Source: Saccharothrix sp. S26
GTDB lineage: Bacteria > Actinomycetota > Actinomycetes > Mycobacteriales > Pseudonocardiaceae
Length of the DNA: 64,000 bases
Assembly: GCF_021390395.1 (NCBI RefSeq)
Contig: NZ_JAJUWT010000005.1
Coordinates: 62,001 to 126,000, forward strand
Reading direction: 5' to 3'
Shown here: piece after piece, positions 44,625-51,786 of the stretch
Position numbering within the stretch: the first letter of the stretch is position 1
Layout of the letters: the number at the start of each line of letters is the position of its first letter
Notes under the pieces: model-generated
Told to the model about the DNA's origin: nothing
The model's database searches: none
The model's input: the letters and a program-made list of their open reading frames with translations, nothing else
Made by a program: the position numbers and the translations under genes

Positions 44625-45997
44625 CCTCGCAAGCCGCCCCCGGGCAGGCATGTCCCGCACACCACGGCCGCACGCCCCTGTACGGCCCCGAGTTCGCCGC
44701 CGACCCGGCCGCGACCTACCAGGCCCTGCGCGAGCACGGGCCGGTCGCGCCGGTCGAGCTGGCGCCCGGTGTGCCCGCCAGCCTCGTCGTGGGCTACTCG
44801 GCCGCGCTGGAAGTCCTGCGCAACCCCAGCGCGTTCCCGCGCGACCCGCGCCAGTGGCAGGCGAAGATGCCACCGGACTGCCCGGTGCTGCCGATGATGA
44901 TGTACCGGCCCAACTGCCTGTTCACCGACGGTGCGCAGCACGCGCGGCTGCGTGCCGTGGTCACCGACAGCCTGGCCCGGGTGGACGCGAACGCGTTGCG
45001 CGCCAACGTCGAGCGGACCGCGGACCGGCTGATCGCCCGGTTCGCCCCCGACGGGGAGGCCGACCTGCTCGCCCAGTACGCGCGGCTGCTGCCGTTGATG
45101 ATCTACAACCACCTCTACGGCTGCCCGCCGCAGCTGGGTGACCGGCTGGTGGCCGCCATGCGCGCCGTCTTCGACATGGTCGAGCCGGAGAAGGCCAACG
45201 CCGAGCTGACCCGGTGCATGGTGGAGCTGGTGGCGCTCAAGCGACGGCAGCCCGACCAGGACATGCCCTCGTGGATGATGGCCCACCCGGCCCGGCTCAC
45301 CGACGAGGAGCTGATCCACCAGCTCGTCCTGCTGATGGGCGCGGGCACCGAGCCCGAGCAGAACCTGATCGCCAACGGCATCCGGCTGCTGCTGTCCGAC
45401 GACCGGTTCGCGGGCAGCCTCTCCGGCGGCAGCCTGCCGGTCGAGGAGGCGCTGGACGAGGTGCTGTGGACCGACCCGCCGATGGCGAACTACTCGGCGA
45501 GCTACCCGGTCGAGGACACCGACTTCGCGGGCGTCCGGCTGCCCGCCGCCGAACCGGTGGTGATCAGCTTCGCGGCGGCCAACAACGACCCCGCGCTGGC
45601 CGGCCAGCAGCGCTCGGGCAACCGCGCCCACCTCGCGTGGAGCGCGGGCGTGCACTCGTGCCCGGCCCAGCAGCCCGCCCGGCTGATCGCGTCGGTGGCG
45701 ATGGAGAAGATCCTCGACGCCCTGCCCGACATGCGGCTGGCCGTCCCGGTCGAGGAGCTCGTCTGGCGGCCTGGCCCGTTCCACCGCGCGCTCGACGCGC
45801 TCCCCGTGCGTTTCACCCCGGTAGCCGTGCCCGTCCCGTCCGACGAGTCACCTGGAGAAACCCGATGGAACGCACAGCCGACCCCGTCGTCCTCGACCCC
45901 ACCGGCCGTGACATCCACGCCGAGTCCGCCGCCCTCGCCGCACGGGGCCCGGCGACGCTGGTGGAGCTCCCTGGCCGGGTGGTTGCGTGGGCGGTGA
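44621..45997 (+). CDS. cvnE: conservon cytochrome P450 CvnE, with C-terminal overrun
   Basis: 458 residues. The heme loop SAGVHSCPAQQPARL has the axial Cys. The I-helix LLMGAGTEPEQNLIANG lacks the usual Thr, and ExxR is not obvious. The conserved body ends near DALPVRFTPVAVPVP. The last 50 residues (from about 45850) are read out of frame through the first 133 bp of the next P450 gene and look like a shadow, so an earlier stop seems to have been lost. Conservon P450s follow cvnD in many actinomycetes. Confidence 0.87.
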   Translation: MTSQAAPGQACPAHHGRTPLYGPEFAADPAATYQALREHGPVAPVELAPGVPASLVVGYSAALEVLRNPSAFPRDPRQWQAKMPPDCPVLPMMMYRPNCLFTDGAQHARLRAVVTDSLARVDANALRANVERTADRLIARFAPDGEADLLAQYARLLPLMIYNHLYGCPPQLGDRLVAAMRAVFDMVEPEKANAELTRCMVELVALKRRQPDQDMPSWMMAHPARLTDEELIHQLVLLMGAGTEPEQNLIANGIRLLLSDDRFAGSLSGGSLPVEEALDEVLWTDPPMANYSASYPVEDTDFAGVRLPAAEPVVISFAAANNDPALAGQQRSGNRAHLAWSAGVHSCPAQQPARLIASVAMEKILDALPDMRLAVPVEELVWRPGPFHRALDALPVRFTPVAVPVPSDESPGETRWNAQPTPSSSTPPAVTSTPSPPPSPHGARRRWWSSLAGWLRGR

Positions 45998-47085
45998 CCC
46001 ACCAGGACACCCTGCGCGACCTGCTCGCCGACCCGCGGGTCTCCAAGGACCCCCGGCAGCACTGGCCCGCGTACACCAGCGGCGCGATCTCCGAGGACTG
46101 GCCGCTGCACGTGTGGGTGTCGGTGCAGAACATGTTCACCGCGTACGGCGCCGACCACCGCCGCCTGCGGTCGCTGGTGTCCAAGGCGTTCACGCCGCGG
46201 CGGGTGGCGGCGATGCGGCCGTGGATCGAGGAGATCACCCACCGGCTGCTGGACGAGCTGGACGCCGCCGAGCAGCCGGTCGACCTGCGGGAGCGCTTCG
46301 CCTACCCGATCCCGATCGAGGTCATCTGCCAGTTGTTCGGCGTGCCCGCGCAGGCGAGGTCGCAGCTGCGGAAGGTGGTCGACGGCGTCTTCGACACCAC
46401 GGTCACCGCCGAGGCGGCCCAGGCGAACGTCGTGCAGCTCTACGGGATCATGCACGAGCTGGTCGCGGCGAAGCGGGAGGACCCCGGTGACGACCTGACC
46501 AGCGGCCTGATCGCGGTGCGCGAGGACGACGGCTCGAAGCTGGAGGAGGCCGAGCTGGTCGACACCCTGATCCTGGTGATCTCCGCGGGCTACGAGACCA
46601 CGGTGAACTTATTGGACCAGGCGATCACGGCCCTGCTGACCCACCCGGAGCAGCTCGCCGCGGTGCGGGCGGGCACGAGCGGCTGGGGTGACGTGATCGA
46701 GGAGACCCTGCGCTGGCAGGCGCCGATCGCGAACCTGCCCCTGCGCTACGCCGTGGAGGACATCGAGATCGGCGACGGCGTCGTCATCGCCAAGGGCGAC
46801 GCGATCCTGGCGGCCTACGCGGCGGCGGGCCGCGACCGGTCGGTCCACGGCGACACCGCCGACCGGTTCGACATCACCAGGGCGGACAAGGCGCACCTGG
46901 CGTTCGGGCACGGCGCGCACTACTGCCTGGGTTCGCCGCTGGCCCGGATGGAAGCGGAGATCGCCCTGCCCGCGCTGTTCGCCCGGTTCCCCGACCTGCG
47001 GTTGGCCGTCGAGCCGCACGAGCTGAGGCCGGGCCAGTCCTTCATCTCCAACGGCCACGAATCGCTGCCGGTGACGCTGAAGTAG
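45865..47085 (+). CDS. second conservon-linked cytochrome P450 (CvnF-type)
   Basis: 406 residues, CYP105/107-like. I-helix VISAGYETTVNLL has a full acid-alcohol pair, ExxR is EETLRWQAP, and the heme loop FGHGAHYCLGSPLARMEAEIAL is canonical. ATG 45865 has GGAG eight bases upstream. Its first 133 bp overlap the end of the preceding P450 in another frame. It is probably a functional monooxygenase. The redox partner is not in the window. Confidence 0.93.
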   Translation: MERTADPVVLDPTGRDIHAESAALAARGPATLVELPGRVVAWAVTHQDTLRDLLADPRVSKDPRQHWPAYTSGAISEDWPLHVWVSVQNMFTAYGADHRRLRSLVSKAFTPRRVAAMRPWIEEITHRLLDELDAAEQPVDLRERFAYPIPIEVICQLFGVPAQARSQLRKVVDGVFDTTVTAEAAQANVVQLYGIMHELVAAKREDPGDDLTSGLIAVREDDGSKLEEAELVDTLILVISAGYETTVNLLDQAITALLTHPEQLAAVRAGTSGWGDVIEETLRWQAPIANLPLRYAVEDIEIGDGVVIAKGDAILAAYAAAGRDRSVHGDTADRFDITRADKAHLAFGHGAHYCLGSPLARMEAEIALPALFARFPDLRLAVEPHELRPGQSFISNGHESLPVTLK

Positions 47086-47124: not shown

Positions 47125-48224
47125 CCTCGGCGTACTGCGGCGTCACGAGGAAGACGAACTCGTGCACCCGGTCGGCTCGGAGACGACGGAGGTCTCCCGG
47201 TCCGGGTGCCGTGGCGCATCAGCAGTTCCTGGTGCACGGGGGGTCACGCCGCCGTCGTCGTTGACCGGGTCGCCGAACACCTCCAGCGCTCACGTGTCGC
47301 CGCCGACGACGGCCGGCCGGAACCGCGCGAGCCACCGCGCAGGTAGGTGCCGGGCATCCCCTTCGCGCCCCCCGCGCGATGTCCGCCGGGTCGCGACGGG
47401 CCGGCAACCCCTTCCAGCCGGTGTGGAGCAGCACCACGTCACCCGGTTCGACGGCGCGGATCCCGCCGAACTCCATGGCGTCCTCGACGGTGGTGCGGTG
47501 GTCCTCGCGCAGCGGCGGTTGGCCGTTGCTCGCCGGCTCCGCCAGGTCCCGCACGCGGCCGCGGGCCGGCTTCACGCCCAGGACGTCCGGCAGCACGCCA
47601 CGCGTGACGATCGGCCCCACGTGCTCGGCGCCCGGCTTCGCGGTGCCGTGGGCGCGGGCGGTAGGTCGTGGCCGGCGGTCCGGGGTGCGCCGGGGAGGTC
47701 TCCGCCTCGAACCGCTCCTCGTGCGCGCCGGCCCGGTTGACGCCCAGCGGCTCGGTCCCGATCACGATGCCGCCCGCGTCCCGCGACCCCGGCGGCGGCC
47801 TGTGCCCCGAGACCGTGAGCCGTTGCTGGTAGGTGCCCGGGCGTTGCATCCGCATGGCCGGGAAGCCGTTCCACCTCAGCTCGCCCAGGTCGTAGGTCTG
47901 CACGTCGTGGTGACGGCGCAGCAGCGCGAGCGCCGACGCCGTCTTGGCCGGGGTCACCTCGTTCAGCGCACCGCGCTGGTACCCCGGCCCGTAGCGGCCG
48001 GGCGGGGGTGGCCGGGTCGGCGCAGTCGACCAGCGCGTCGTCGGCCGCGGCGGCGCTCGCGGGCGTCGTGCCGACCAGGGCGGCCCGGCCGCGGACCGCC
48101 CCGCCCGGAACACCGGGTCGAAGTGGTTCTTCCAGGCCGCGCCGGCGGCCCCGGCCGTCGCGAGCACCTCCCGCCGGCCGACGTGGTGCCTGGTGAAGCA
48201 GTCGCGCAACTGGTCGGGGTCCAT
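47125..48224 (-). pseudogene. cyclase-family (kynurenine formamidase-like) gene, multiply frameshifted
   Basis: A good start, ATG 48224 with GGAAGGAG, gives a Tat-like leader (TRHHVGRREVLATAGAAGAAW) and then NEVTPAKTASALALLRRHHDVQTYDLG, FPAMRMQRPGTYQQRL and GGIVIGTEPLGVNRAGAHEE. The frame then shifts: GPIVTRGVLPDVLGVKPARG and EPGDVVLLHTGWKG are in another frame, and YLRWLARFRP, GDTWALEVFG and VHQELLMRHG in further ones. At least three or four frameshifts are needed to rebuild the protein, so this is a real relic and not one sequencing error. Intact relatives are secreted metal-dependent amidases or cyclases. Confidence 0.8.
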
Positions 48225-48360
48225 GTGGCGACTCCTTCCCCGCAGGGTGAACGGCCAACCACCTGGAGGAGGCAACGGCGCGCTGCCGTCAGCGCTTTGG
48301 CGACCACCGGGTCCGCTGTGGTTTCCTCGGCATCCCCCGGTGACGGACAGGAGGCTCGCG

Positions 48361-49032
48361 GTGGCGGAGACGACGGTGGCCGAGGTGATGGCCGAGCTGT
48401 CCGCGCTCGAGGACCCGAGGGCCCGCGCGGTCAACGAGAAGCACGGTGACGACCACGGCGTGAACCTCGGCGAGCTGCGCGCGCTGGCGAAGCGGCTGAA
48501 GACCCAGCAGGAGCTCGCGCGGCGGCTGTGGGAGACCGGTGACACGGCGGCGAGGCTGCTGGCGCTCCTCGTCTGCCGGCCGAAGGCGTTCGCGCGGGAC
48601 GAGCTGGACGCCATGCTCCGCGAGGCGCGCACGCCCAAGGTGCACGACTGGCTGGTGAACTACGTGGTGAAGAAGAGCCCGTTCGCCGAAGAGCTGCGCC
48701 TGGCGTGGTCGGCCGACCCGGATCCGGTGGTCGCGAGCGCCGGGTGGGCGCTGACCACCGAGCGGGTGGCCAGGACGCCCGAGGGGCTCGACCTCGCGGC
48801 CCTGCTCGACGTCGTCGAAGCCGAGATGAGGACCGCGCCGGACCGCCTCCAGTGGGCGATGAACCACTGCCTGGCCCAGATCGGCATCGACCACCCCGAG
48901 CACCGGGCGCGTGCGATCGACATCGGCGAACGCCTCGGAGTGCTGAAGGACTACCCGACTCCCCGGAACTGCACCTCCCCGTTCGCGCCGGTCTGGATCA
49001 CGGAGGTGGTCCGCCGCCGAGCCGCCGGGTAG
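48361..49032 (+). CDS. AlkD-like DNA alkylation repair protein
   Basis: 223 residues, all-helical HEAT-like repeats. ALEDPRARAVNEKHGDDHGVNLGELRALAKRL opens the AlkD-type domain, with later ARDELDAML, VHDWLVNYVVKKSPFAEEL and WAMNHCLAQIGIDHPEHRARAIDI segments. AlkD proteins excise positively charged alkylated bases without base flipping. GTG 48361 has AGGAGG six bases upstream; the longer frame from 48193 is not real. A strong hairpin follows 26 bases after the stop. Confidence 0.85.
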   Translation: MAETTVAEVMAELSALEDPRARAVNEKHGDDHGVNLGELRALAKRLKTQQELARRLWETGDTAARLLALLVCRPKAFARDELDAMLREARTPKVHDWLVNYVVKKSPFAEELRLAWSADPDPVVASAGWALTTERVARTPEGLDLAALLDVVEAEMRTAPDRLQWAMNHCLAQIGIDHPEHRARAIDIGERLGVLKDYPTPRNCTSPFAPVWITEVVRRRAAG

Positions 49033-49057: not shown

Positions 49058-49090
49058 GGCCCGGCCGCCGTGCGGGGTGGCGGCCGGGCC
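49058..49090. terminator. bidirectional terminator
   Basis: A perfect 12-bp stem, GGCCCGGCCGCC with GGCGGCCGGGCC, and a nine-base loop. It lies between the convergent AlkD-like gene (ends 49032) and the small peptide gene (ends 49100), so it can serve both. Its presence supports the small gene being transcribed. Confidence 0.75.
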
Positions 49091-49099
49091 GGTTCGGGG

Positions 49100-49180
49100 T
49101 CAGCGACGCCAGTCGTTCGGCCGGCCGGTGCGCCAGTCGTTGGGGCGGGTGGAGCCGGCGTTGGTCGTGATGGTGCTCAT
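49100..49180 (-). CDS. 26-residue peptide gene with RPNDWR repeat
   Basis: On the minus strand, CCAGGAG stands seven bases before ATG 49180, and a 26-codon frame ends in TGA at 49102-49100. The peptide begins MSTITTNAGST and ends RPNDWRTGRPNDWRR, so the hexapeptide RPNDWR occurs twice within 15 residues. No family was recognised. The gene is divergent from a diguanylate cyclase gene across 78 bp and ends at a bidirectional terminator. It could be a signalling or leader peptide, or a precursor peptide, but no modifying enzyme is adjacent. It is too short for ordinary gene finding; the strong ribosome site and internal repeat are the grounds for calling it. Confidence 0.55.
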   Translation of the reverse strand: MSTITTNAGSTRPNDWRTGRPNDWRR

Positions 49181-49258
49181 GCTGCTCTCCTGGGGTGCTC
49201 GACTGACTGTGATGGCTTGGTTACGGTGTCATCACCTGTTGGGAGGCGGTGACACCTC

Positions 49259-50554
49259 ATGGTCGCGGGGGAACGACGAGGGCGCGCGTCCCCTCTCGCC
49301 CGGTGTCGCGGCTGGTCGCTGTGGCGGCTGCCGCGAGCCGTGCTGGTCTACGTGCTGGCCGTGGAGGCCGTGGCGGTGGTCGCGGTGGCGGCCGTGGCCG
49401 GGCTGACGCCGGTGACCGGTCGCCACTGGGCGTGGTTCGGGGTGCTCGCGGCCGCGGCCGTGGTGCACTTCGAGGCGGCGCGCGGGCTGGAACGGGTGCG
49501 CGAGGTGGCCGCGGAGGGCAGCCCGTACGCGCACCCGCAGTCGATCTGGCTGTTCGCGGGCGTGCTGGTGCTGCCGCCGCCGCTGGTGGCCGCGTTGGTC
49601 GCGGTGAGCTACGGCTACGGGTGGCTGCGGATCTACCGGCGCAGCCCGCTGCACCGCAAGGTCTTCTCCGCCGCCACGGTGCTGCTGGCCTGCTGGTCGG
49701 CGGGCGCGATCCTGCTCGTCGCCCACCCGGACCCGGCGCTGCCGCACGCCGCGCAGCTGACCGGCCCGGTCGACCTGGGCGCGCTGGTGGCGGCCGGGGT
49801 GACGTACTGGCTGGTCAACCTCGCGCTGGTGGTGGGCGCGATCCTGCTGTCCACGCCGGCGCGGCCGGGGCGCGACGTGCTGGGGCCGCTGAGCCAGCAG
49901 TTGGTCATCGCGGCGTCGATCGGCCTGGGCACGGGCCTGGCGGTGGTGCTGGTGACGGCCCCGTGGGTGGTGCCGGTGCTGGTGGTGACCATGCTCGGGA
50001 TGCACCTGGGGCTGCTGCTGCCGGTCTACCGCACCGCCGCGCGGGTGGACGGCAAGACCGGCGCGCTGACCTCGGTGGCGTGGACCGAGCGCGCCGCCGC
50101 CGAGCTGGCCCGGTCGGCGGCGACCGGCGCGCCGATGGCGGTGCTGCTGCTCGACCTCGACCACTTCAGCGACATCAACAACACGCGCGGGCACCTGGCC
50201 GGTGACCACGCGCTGCGCGCGGTGGCCGCCGAGCTGCGCCGCCAGGTGCGTGACGACGACCTGGTGGGCAGGTGGGGCGGCGAGGAGTTCGTGGTGCTGC
50301 TGCCGGGCGCGGACGCGACCGCCGCCCGGCAGGCCGCCGAACGCATCCGCGCCGCGGTCAGGACGCCGTTGACCGACGTGCCCGCCACCGGTGGCCGGGA
50401 CGTGGACGACCTGCGGATCACCGCGTCGCTGGGCGTGGCCGCGTACCCGGTCCACGGCGACACGGTCGACCGGCTGCTGCTGGCCGCCGACACCGCGCTG
50501 TACCGGGCGAAGAACAACGGCCGGGACCGGGTCGAGACCGCGCCGGCCGGCTGA
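49259..50554 (+). CDS. membrane diguanylate cyclase (GGDEF)
   Basis: 431 residues. About six N-terminal helices (residues 25-260, a MASE-like sensor) precede a GGDEF domain: DLDHFSDINNTRGHLAGD, the active-site loop GRWGGEEFVVLLPGAD, and ASLGVAAYPVHGD. The inhibitory I-site RDDD lies five residues before GGEEF, so product feedback by c-di-GMP is expected. No EAL domain is present, so it makes c-di-GMP from two GTP. The start codon ATG 49259 lies 78 bp from the divergent RPNDWR peptide gene. In actinomycetes c-di-GMP holds back development. Confidence 0.94.
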   Translation: MVAGERRGRASPLARCRGWSLWRLPRAVLVYVLAVEAVAVVAVAAVAGLTPVTGRHWAWFGVLAAAAVVHFEAARGLERVREVAAEGSPYAHPQSIWLFAGVLVLPPPLVAALVAVSYGYGWLRIYRRSPLHRKVFSAATVLLACWSAGAILLVAHPDPALPHAAQLTGPVDLGALVAAGVTYWLVNLALVVGAILLSTPARPGRDVLGPLSQQLVIAASIGLGTGLAVVLVTAPWVVPVLVVTMLGMHLGLLLPVYRTAARVDGKTGALTSVAWTERAAAELARSAATGAPMAVLLLDLDHFSDINNTRGHLAGDHALRAVAAELRRQVRDDDLVGRWGGEEFVVLLPGADATAARQAAERIRAAVRTPLTDVPATGGRDVDDLRITASLGVAAYPVHGDTVDRLLLAADTALYRAKNNGRDRVETAPAG

Positions 50555-50559
50555 CCCGG

Positions 50560-51786
50560 ATGGTGGCGGCGGACGGCGGGCGGGTGCGGTACCGCGAGGT
50601 GTTCTCCTCCGGCGAGTTCCGGGCGTTGTTCGCCGCGCACACCGTCTCCACCGTCGGCGACCAGTTCGCCCGGGTCGCGCTCACCGTGCTGGTGTTCCGC
50701 GACACCGGCTCCCCCGCGTGGGCGGCGATCACGTACGCGTTGACGTTCCTGCCCGACCTCGTGGGCGGCCCCCTGCTGGCGGGACTGGCCGACCGCCATC
50801 CCCGACGCGCGGTGATGGTGTGCTCCGACGTCGTGCGCGCCCTGCTGGTCGCGCTGATGGCCGTGCCGGTCCTGCCGTGGCCGGTGGTGTGCGGGCTGCT
50901 GGTGCTGCTGCAGCTGGCGGGCGCGCCCGCGGTCCCGGCCCGGACCGCCCTGCTGCCGCACGTGCTGCCCGGTCCGGCGTTCCGCGCGGGCGCGGCCGCG
51001 CTGTCCACCGTGAGCCAGGCCGCCCAGGTCGCCGGGTTCGCCGCCGGCGGTGTCCTGGTCCTCGCGATCGGCACGGGCGGCGTGCTGCTGCTGGACGCCG
51101 CGTCGTTCGCGGTGTCGGCGGCCGTGGTGGCGTGGCGAGTTCGGGCCCGGCCCAGGCCCGGTGGCGACGGCGTGGCCCGGCCGGGGTGGTGGCGGGCGAC
51201 GGCGGCCGGCGCGGTCCTGGTGTGGCGTGACCGGCGGCTCCTCGCGCTGGTCGGCTTCGCGGCGCTGTCGGCGTTCTACATCAGCGGCGAGGCGCTGGCC
51301 GTGCCGCTGGCCGACCAGCTCGGCGGCGGGCCGGTCGCGGCCGGGCTGCTGTTCGCCGCCTACCCGGCGGGGTGCGCGGTGGCGAGCCTGGTCGTGGCCA
51401 CCCGCCCGGAGGCCGTCCAACTGCGCGCCCTGCCCGTGCTGGCGGTGGCGACCAGCGCGGTGCTGGTCGCCTGCGCGCTGCGGCCCGGCCTGCCGGTCCT
51501 GGTGCTGCTGTTCGCCGCGTCCGGCGCCGCGTCGAGCTACCACGCCATCGCCTCGCCGACGTTCGCGCTGTGGACCCCGGACGAGGCCCGCGGCCAGGTC
51601 TACGGCCTGGCCGTCACCGCGCTCAAGATCGCGCAGGGCCTCGGCGTCGCCGCCGCCGGCCTCGCCGCCGAGCACGTGCCGCCGCACCAGGTGGTCGCGG
51701 CGGGCGGTGTGCTGGGTGTGCTCGCGGCCCTGGGCGTCGGCGTGCTGTGGCGGCGCAGCGGCGTCCGCCGCCTCGTCAGGGACTGA
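50560..51786 (+). CDS. MFS transporter (MFS_3-like)
   Basis: 408 residues with about twelve helices. FSSGEFRALFAAHTVSTVGDQFARVAL and GLADRHPRRAVMVCSD are MFS_3 features, related in type to the transporter at 794. ATG 50560 begins five bases after the diguanylate cyclase stop, so it is probably cotranscribed. Its end overlaps the convergent LysR gene by 11 bp. Substrate unknown. Confidence 0.9.
   Translation: MVAADGGRVRYREVFSSGEFRALFAAHTVSTVGDQFARVALTVLVFRDTGSPAWAAITYALTFLPDLVGGPLLAGLADRHPRRAVMVCSDVVRALLVALMAVPVLPWPVVCGLLVLLQLAGAPAVPARTALLPHVLPGPAFRAGAAALSTVSQAAQVAGFAAGGVLVLAIGTGGVLLLDAASFAVSAAVVAWRVRARPRPGGDGVARPGWWRATAAGAVLVWRDRRLLALVGFAALSAFYISGEALAVPLADQLGGGPVAAGLLFAAYPAGCAVASLVVATRPEAVQLRALPVLAVATSAVLVACALRPGLPVLVLLFAASGAASSYHAIASPTFALWTPDEARGQVYGLAVTALKIAQGLGVAAAGLAAEHVPPHQVVAAGGVLGVLAALGVGVLWRRSGVRRLVRD

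Follow-up and report, generated by a model that had tools for sequence, protein, structure and literature searches.

Very short tryptophan-containing peptide genes, fused or arrayed as minigenes, lie divergent to a family of membrane diguanylate cyclases in actinobacteria

The window analysed here is a stretch of 64,000 nucleotides from Saccharothrix sp. S26, in which a reading of the sequence alone had singled out a 26-residue peptide gene with a strong ribosome site, a clean stop and a duplicated RPNDWR motif, divergent across 78 bp from a diguanylate cyclase (DGC). The open reading frame with its AGGAGAG, ATG and TGA, both repeats and the cyclase are all borne out, and a transporter gene follows the cyclase (coordinates are those of the window):

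49058 to 49090, no strand: 12-bp perfect inverted repeat without a T-tract, 3' of the peptide gene
49100 to 49180 (stop included), minus strand: 26-residue peptide gene MSTITTNAGSTRPNDWRTGRPNDWRR, ATG start and TGA stop, conserved in the genus
49106 to 49123, minus strand: second RPNDWR repeat (codons 20-25)
49130 to 49147, minus strand: first RPNDWR repeat (codons 12-17)
49185 to 49191, minus strand: Shine-Dalgarno-like AGGAGAG, ending 4 nt before the peptide ATG
49220 to 49256, minus strand: upstream inverted-repeat element GGTGTCACC ... TGACACCGTAAC, from orthologue comparison by eye
49259 to 50554, plus strand: divergent membrane DGC of 431 residues (Pfam PF00990, 1.3e-38) with GGEEF and an RxxD I-site
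49259 to 50041, plus strand: N-terminal membrane sensor domain of the DGC (model pLDDT 83.5, pTM 0.80)
50560 to 51786, plus strand: MFS transporter (PF07690, 1.2e-25 for 50557 to 51783)

The 78 bp between the peptide start and the cyclase ATG at 49259 contain an element formed by the inverted repeat GGTGTCACC / TGACACC followed by GTAAC, which by eye is largely kept in orthologues and altered in two of them (L042 and L044). This element is possibly a promoter or operator, and its inverted repeat may be an operator common to the peptide gene and the DGC; the CGTAAC within it we take to resemble the -35 element of ECF sigma factors. On the 3' side, the structure that had been described as a perfect bidirectional terminator is indeed a perfect 12-bp stem, which folds slightly better than shuffles (z -1.9) and has a comparable counterpart in seven of seven orthologues (by eye), but it is not called by intrinsic-terminator prediction. 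Rfam at gathering cut-offs gave no match, a tRNA search found none, and no signal peptide is apparent in the encoded peptide. The earlier failure to recognise a family for it is matched by searches against Pfam and NCBIfam, where four peptides tested gave nothing above cut-off and a single weak Pfam match at E 0.71. As to the surroundings, a DNA-alkylation-repair protein (48193 to 49032, plus strand; PF08713, 1.7e-21) lies convergent with the peptide gene, and its family is found near the peptide in two of seven genomes, the window's and one more in which the distance differs; an apparent cytochrome P450 frame (by eye, about 45900 to 47085, plus strand) lies about 2 kb from the peptide gene and is not a recurring neighbour.

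The sequence-only reading had staked its case on a similar short ORF at the same locus in close relatives. Of the 24 other genomes examined from the genus, six encode one there (E<1e-3), with two to three repeats and in every case adjoining the same DGC and MFS transporter. Because these genomes encode the peptide, the repeat is beyond chance, as had been supposed. Across the seven peptide-bearing genomes, the window included, the order is peptide, DGC, MFS; only the latter two are kept beside the peptide in all, and the remaining flanking genes differ. Comparison within the genus shows the signature of selection at the level of the peptide: among five equal-length orthologues of the seven, the codons of the repeats hold four synonymous and no amino-acid-changing variable sites, and those of the leader and linker one synonymous and eight amino-acid-changing. 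A strict DNA pattern scan of genome contigs returned 11 stretches, three of them in Saccharothrix (luteola, sp. NRRL B-16348 and carnea) and eight in Lachnospiraceae, Spirochaetaceae, Bacteroidales and Verrucomicrobia that we read as unrelated repeats or frames; none of the diverged relatives was reached by it. Overall, there is strong support for a genuine short gene that is linked to the DGC beside it. The comparisons extend beyond the earlier view to a peptide class spanning several families, minigene arrays, an MFS partner and a peptide type that varies in step with the membrane half of the cyclase.

To follow the locus beyond the genus, we used the membrane domain of the window's DGC as bait. 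Matches were found in at least 238 of 297 genomes drawn from the family (E<=1e-8, many of them distant), in at least 37 of 394 drawn from the class (E<=1e-10) and in 18 of the 22 genomes of family f34 (E<=1e-20); a phylum-wide draw yielded the sensor domain in at least one of 296 genomes, that one being the window's own. We then examined 139 DGC loci, comprising the 59 best-scoring matches and 80 picked from the matches listed (L086-L165; the first 60 nearly in listed order, the last 20 selected), with a motif detector whose rules were fixed after seeing examples. At 105 of them it found at least two divergent copies of a short Trp peptide, as repeats within one ORF (76 loci) or as arrays of separate minigenes (29); ten more loci had a single copy and 24 none. 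Chance may account for single-copy calls, among them MRTNEIW, MSSTQWG and MSSGVQWI. By eye the motif is present at five of the 24 detector-negative loci, with at least two copies at L066 (in a shifted frame), L121, L127 and L183 and one at L163, leaving 19 of the 139 without a recognisable peptide. The cores comprise RPNDW; RPTDW or LPTDW (2-10 copies); RPSEW, RPAEW and RPADW; STDWTF (6 copies), GNEW (3-7), GSEWH (4), SNNW (4) and DSNWH (3-8); and RENTW, RDNNW, RDTTW, RDNTW, RDKIW, RGNSW, RANSW and others, with Trp kept in every core counted, as the search rule itself required. Fused forms contain 2-10 peptide copies in one ORF of up to 113 residues and show no obvious processing sites. The window's genome carries a second such locus, with three MRDKIW minigenes (G000:C21). 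It also holds two distant relatives of the sensor (G000:C24:67275-67979, loci L268 and L301, and G000:C38:10356-10976, loci L264 and L302), neither with a recognised W-peptide upstream.

Across 640 kb of flanks, scanned with a looser rule than the detector's, 40 of 43 regions have hits divergent to the DGC, 45 in all, and a further 12 hits lie elsewhere on either strand, one of the 12 (L234) being the MRSVQWA array of L187 in the wrong orientation and one of the 45 (L233, RRW) being spurious; the 43 regions were chosen after peptides had been seen at most of them, so that the 139-locus count is the better one. As a control, 164 kb of strand upstream of 20 of 25 GGDEF matches in the window's genome, also scanned with a looser rule, gave one unrelated hit; two of the 20 stretches (L268 and L264) come from distant members of the sensor family. 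Comparison of these loci shows a divergent linkage of the peptides to this DGC family, to which we consider the peptide family almost certainly tied.

In the arrays, up to 14 separate minigenes of 6-10 codons, each with its own Shine-Dalgarno sequence and stop, follow one another at a median spacing of 72 nt, as exemplified by MRDTTWS, MRDNNWTR and MRDKIW; MRDTTW(S/R) occurs 13 times at L168 and an MRDNNW-type unit 14 times at L162. The units are ORFs in their own right and not parts of one frame, since the distance from one start to the next is no multiple of three in 56 of 108 cases. Diverged arrays (L160, L162 and L177) conserve the Shine-Dalgarno sequence, the start, the core and mostly the stop, and not the linkers; many of the linkers at L168 are near-identical, as recent duplication would leave them. 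Locus L285 is intermediate, with four readable minigenes that each fuse two copies and one further minigene that is partly masked. That the same motif occurs both fused and as minigenes argues that the translated peptide, supplied in many copies, is the part that counts. The L285 locus (G556), otherwise readable, has masked or unresolved bases inside its array, and arrays may thus be under-counted in draft genomes. On the sense strand of 12 loci of genus g8 (L073, L074, L076-L081, L084, L089, L093 and L102), a conserved ORF of 11 codons, MRSPTWSHDF(A/P/T), with a Shine-Dalgarno sequence lies 72-84 nt before the start of the DGC match; possibly it is a DGC leader ORF, or else a frame that overlaps the N-terminus of the cyclase.

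In the cyclases themselves, GG[DE]EF and the RxxD I-site are intact in all 59 full-length DGC genes. The sensor domain has no counterpart above cut-off in Pfam or NCBIfam, and a sensor profile matched no PDB sequence. AlphaFold2 models of the window's sensor (pLDDT 83.5) and of a relative from f34 (87.3), built from alignments that share members, both adopt a helical bundle. In Foldseek searches one model placed RibU first by E-value, which is weak (E 0.27, probability 0.97, TMt 0.55), and the other placed ThiT second by an equally weak E-value (E 0.29, probability 0.99, TMt 0.62), behind an unrelated receptor with probability 0.21. The modelled domain thereby weakly resembles ECF S-components, which take ligands from outside, and this likeness hints that the sensor binds a small ligand. 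Its conserved charged residues E78, R79, R81 and R133 are probably on the cytosolic side, as judged by eye from charge, a position that would suit an intracellular ligand.

The MFS transporter is a third recurrent member of these loci. Protein clustering of the 43 flanks placed the DGC in 39 regions through the gene finder (43 of 43 with tblastn) and the MFS in 34, one more being recognised by Pfam, for a total of at least 35; no other family occurs in more than six flanks by clustering. All ten neighbours tested carry an MFS domain above the Pfam cut-off, one of them outside the MFS cluster, and the eight flanks without an MFS of this kind include some that are short or poorly gene-called. 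Across the flanks the genes usually run from the MFS through the peptide, which is encoded on the other strand, to the DGC. By this comparison the MFS is a recurrent genomic partner of the peptide/DGC loci.

The identity of the peptide follows the sensor. On a tree of 115 sensor sequences, which has few columns and many weak forks, the core changes 29 times as against a shuffled mean of 83 and minimum of 76, and the residue before Trp switches between acidic and other twice as against 38 times in shuffles. A closer view is afforded by genus g8, where the locus is orthologous by its neighbours in three species with long flanks (L201, L207 and L208) and where the peptide at 22 loci is STDWTF, RPNDW, RPTDW or RPNEW. 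Identity of the membrane half is 0.92-0.98 within a peptide type and 0.71-0.79 between types, compared with 0.885-0.972 and 0.85-0.93 for the GGDEF half. Among the three larger types (leaving out L069, where the ORF was not found), fixed differences occupy 26 of 244 columns of the membrane half and 0 of 178 of the GGDEF half, with a sharp step in type-linked variation at the domain border; the MFS has none in 326 columns, three of the 22 loci having no MFS match (L089, L077 and L081). With GGDEF distance controlled for, membrane distance and motif difference have a partial correlation of 0.92 (22 sequences), a value reached by none of 5000 shuffles, which ignore phylogeny in a comparison that rests on few independent switches; the MFS gives -0.07 (19 sequences). 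The GGDEF half and the MFS, being from the same genomes, act as controls for these phylogeny-blind shuffles. Within the loci compared, peptide type in g8 thus co-varies with the membrane half of the DGC and with that half only, which is how a peptide and its receptor should behave; recombination that swapped peptide and sensor as one block would leave an identical picture, and would be equal evidence that they move together. Finally, the 20 genomes that carry two or three loci of this kind all have a different core at each (the cores of 16 loci being entered by hand), which is partly expected because cores follow DGC clades.

We judge it probable that the peptide acts through the membrane half of the DGC. 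For the module as a whole, the explanation that accounts best for these observations, and to which we give an even chance, is that the active unit is a Trp-containing penta- to octapeptide signal, repeated by in-frame fusion or in rows of minigenes to raise its yield, that the neighbouring MFS most likely exports it, and that the N-terminal membrane domain of the divergent DGC would be its cognate receptor, converting peptide level into c-di-GMP. With export by the MFS, the module would work like polymorphic (pherotype) peptide signalling, with a cyclase in place of a kinase as output. We infer translation in vivo, MFS export, binding by the membrane domain, the direction of the effect and any processing of fused forms. 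Of the roles that had been put forward for the peptide, signal, leader or regulator of the cyclase gene, signal or regulator fits best; a leader or attenuator would share the transcript of the gene it regulates and lie upstream of it, and this role is rejected because the DGC is encoded on one strand and the peptide cores on the other. Export and sensing from outside have even odds in our estimate. The lack of a signal peptide, the probable cytosolic residues, the eight flanks without such an MFS, the absence of MFS co-variation and the weakness of the structure matches speak against a secreted signal. Against peptide signalling in general are the 19 of 139 loci and the two distant sensor relatives that have no peptide, and MRSPTWSHDF is left unexplained by it. 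In its fullest form, with secreted polymorphic Trp-minipeptide autoinducers made from fused repeats or minigenes and read by ECF-S-like DGC domains in insulated channels, the proposal has somewhat less than an even chance.

The strongest rival, unlikely in our view, is that the peptide stays inside the cell and binds the membrane domain of the DGC from the cytosol as a dedicated small-protein inhibitor or activator, the MFS having some other substrate. It predicts the same membrane-half co-variation, and is in keeping with the peptide's lack of a signal sequence, the conserved polar sensor residues in probable cytosolic segments (side assigned by eye), the fused forms of up to 113 residues without obvious processing sites and the indifference of the MFS to peptide type; against it stand the recurrence of the MFS, copy numbers that suggest a need for much product, and the weak likeness to S-components, whose ligands come from outside. 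Distinctly less probable is that the peptides serve as precursors for a small modified, RiPP-like product, exported by the MFS and with its production regulated or sensed by the DGC. Minimal, multi-copy precursors have precedent (in the part of PMC13417212 consulted), and a Trp in every core counted, though demanded by the search rule, and an MFS neighbour would both suit such a product. No modifying-enzyme family recurs in the 43 flanks, however, by clustering and by Pfam on some neighbours, and peptide type tracks the sensor half of the DGC rather than the transporter. A role of the element as RNA or DNA, through minigene translation, tRNA trapping or regulator binding sites, is very improbable: minigenes with a strong Shine-Dalgarno sequence each could act by being translated, and many L168 linkers are near-identical as well, but the repeats in the window's genus vary synonymously only, long fused ORFs occupy the same place, linkers in diverged arrays are unconserved and the motif tracks the sensor half. 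Least credible of all is direct binding of c-di-GMP by the peptide, as sponge or effector, through its RPND, which fits the RxxD motif of c-di-GMP binding and is encoded next to a gene whose enzyme makes c-di-GMP, an idea dropped because most other cores (RPSEW, GNEW, STDW, RDNNW, RDKIW) do not have the conserved RxxD.

The module can be compared with several known systems. Like yeast alpha-factor-like precursors, the fused forms hold several copies of a short signal, but no secretion signal is seen here, and the copies also occur as separate minigenes with ribosome sites. Like membrane-sensor DGCs of the MASE type and others, the cyclases fuse a membrane sensor to an intact GGDEF domain, but their sensor has no Pfam or NCBIfam match and a dedicated peptide gene lies beside it; our search of the open-access literature found no dedicated peptide gene for a membrane-sensor DGC. 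In ComQXPA of Bacillus, as described in the part of PMC4008528 consulted, a variable Trp-containing peptide likewise lies beside its receptor, and the N-terminal membrane half of ComP is variable and the rest conserved; in g8, too, the membrane half varies with the peptide and the cytoplasmic half is conserved. Here, however, the peptide is multi-copy (fused or as minigenes), divergent and partnered by an MFS, and the output is a GGDEF cyclase instead of a histidine kinase. With no kinase and no recurring isoprenyl-transferase-like neighbour in the 43 flanks (by clustering, and Pfam on some neighbours), the module is not a ComQXPA member. The biarylitide genes (BytA/BytO) are as short as 18 bp and present in several copies in some strains, with an MxYxY/H-type aromatic pattern and a P450 partner, according to the part of PMC13417212 consulted. 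The present genes are likewise extremely short (21 bp and up) but have neither trait; because the motif is wrong and no P450 family recurs in the 43 flanks by clustering, they are not biarylitides.

A polymorphic peptide paired with its receptor is a principle already known. What is apparently undescribed is this large class of very short Trp peptides in actinobacteria, which we call new since none of the described families tested is matched by the peptide, by the sensor domain or by the gene architecture. We found no paper on such a peptide/DGC system in the open-access literature, where the core motif strings are also absent except for PTDWT and GNEWF in papers unrelated by title. With peptides of 6-10 codons in many species and no model for them among the family collections tried, the gene class may be missing from annotation. 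To our knowledge, the stimulus of most membrane diguanylate cyclases is an open question, and as each cyclase of this family seemingly has its own encoded partner peptide, it becomes directly testable. Arrays of minigenes with a ribosome site each are an unusual means of multiplying a peptide. If the module signals, it would provide peptide-to-c-di-GMP channels in actinomycetes with a possible role in governing development, together with a naturally diverse collection of peptide/sensor pairs for engineering; some cells would hold two or three mutually insulated channels of this kind.

Two of the loci differ in the integrity of their repeats. At L066 the RPSEW repeats are out of frame with the usual start, and L067 has one degenerate and one intact repeat; both are possibly decayed copies, for which a pseudogene and a sequencing error fit alike.
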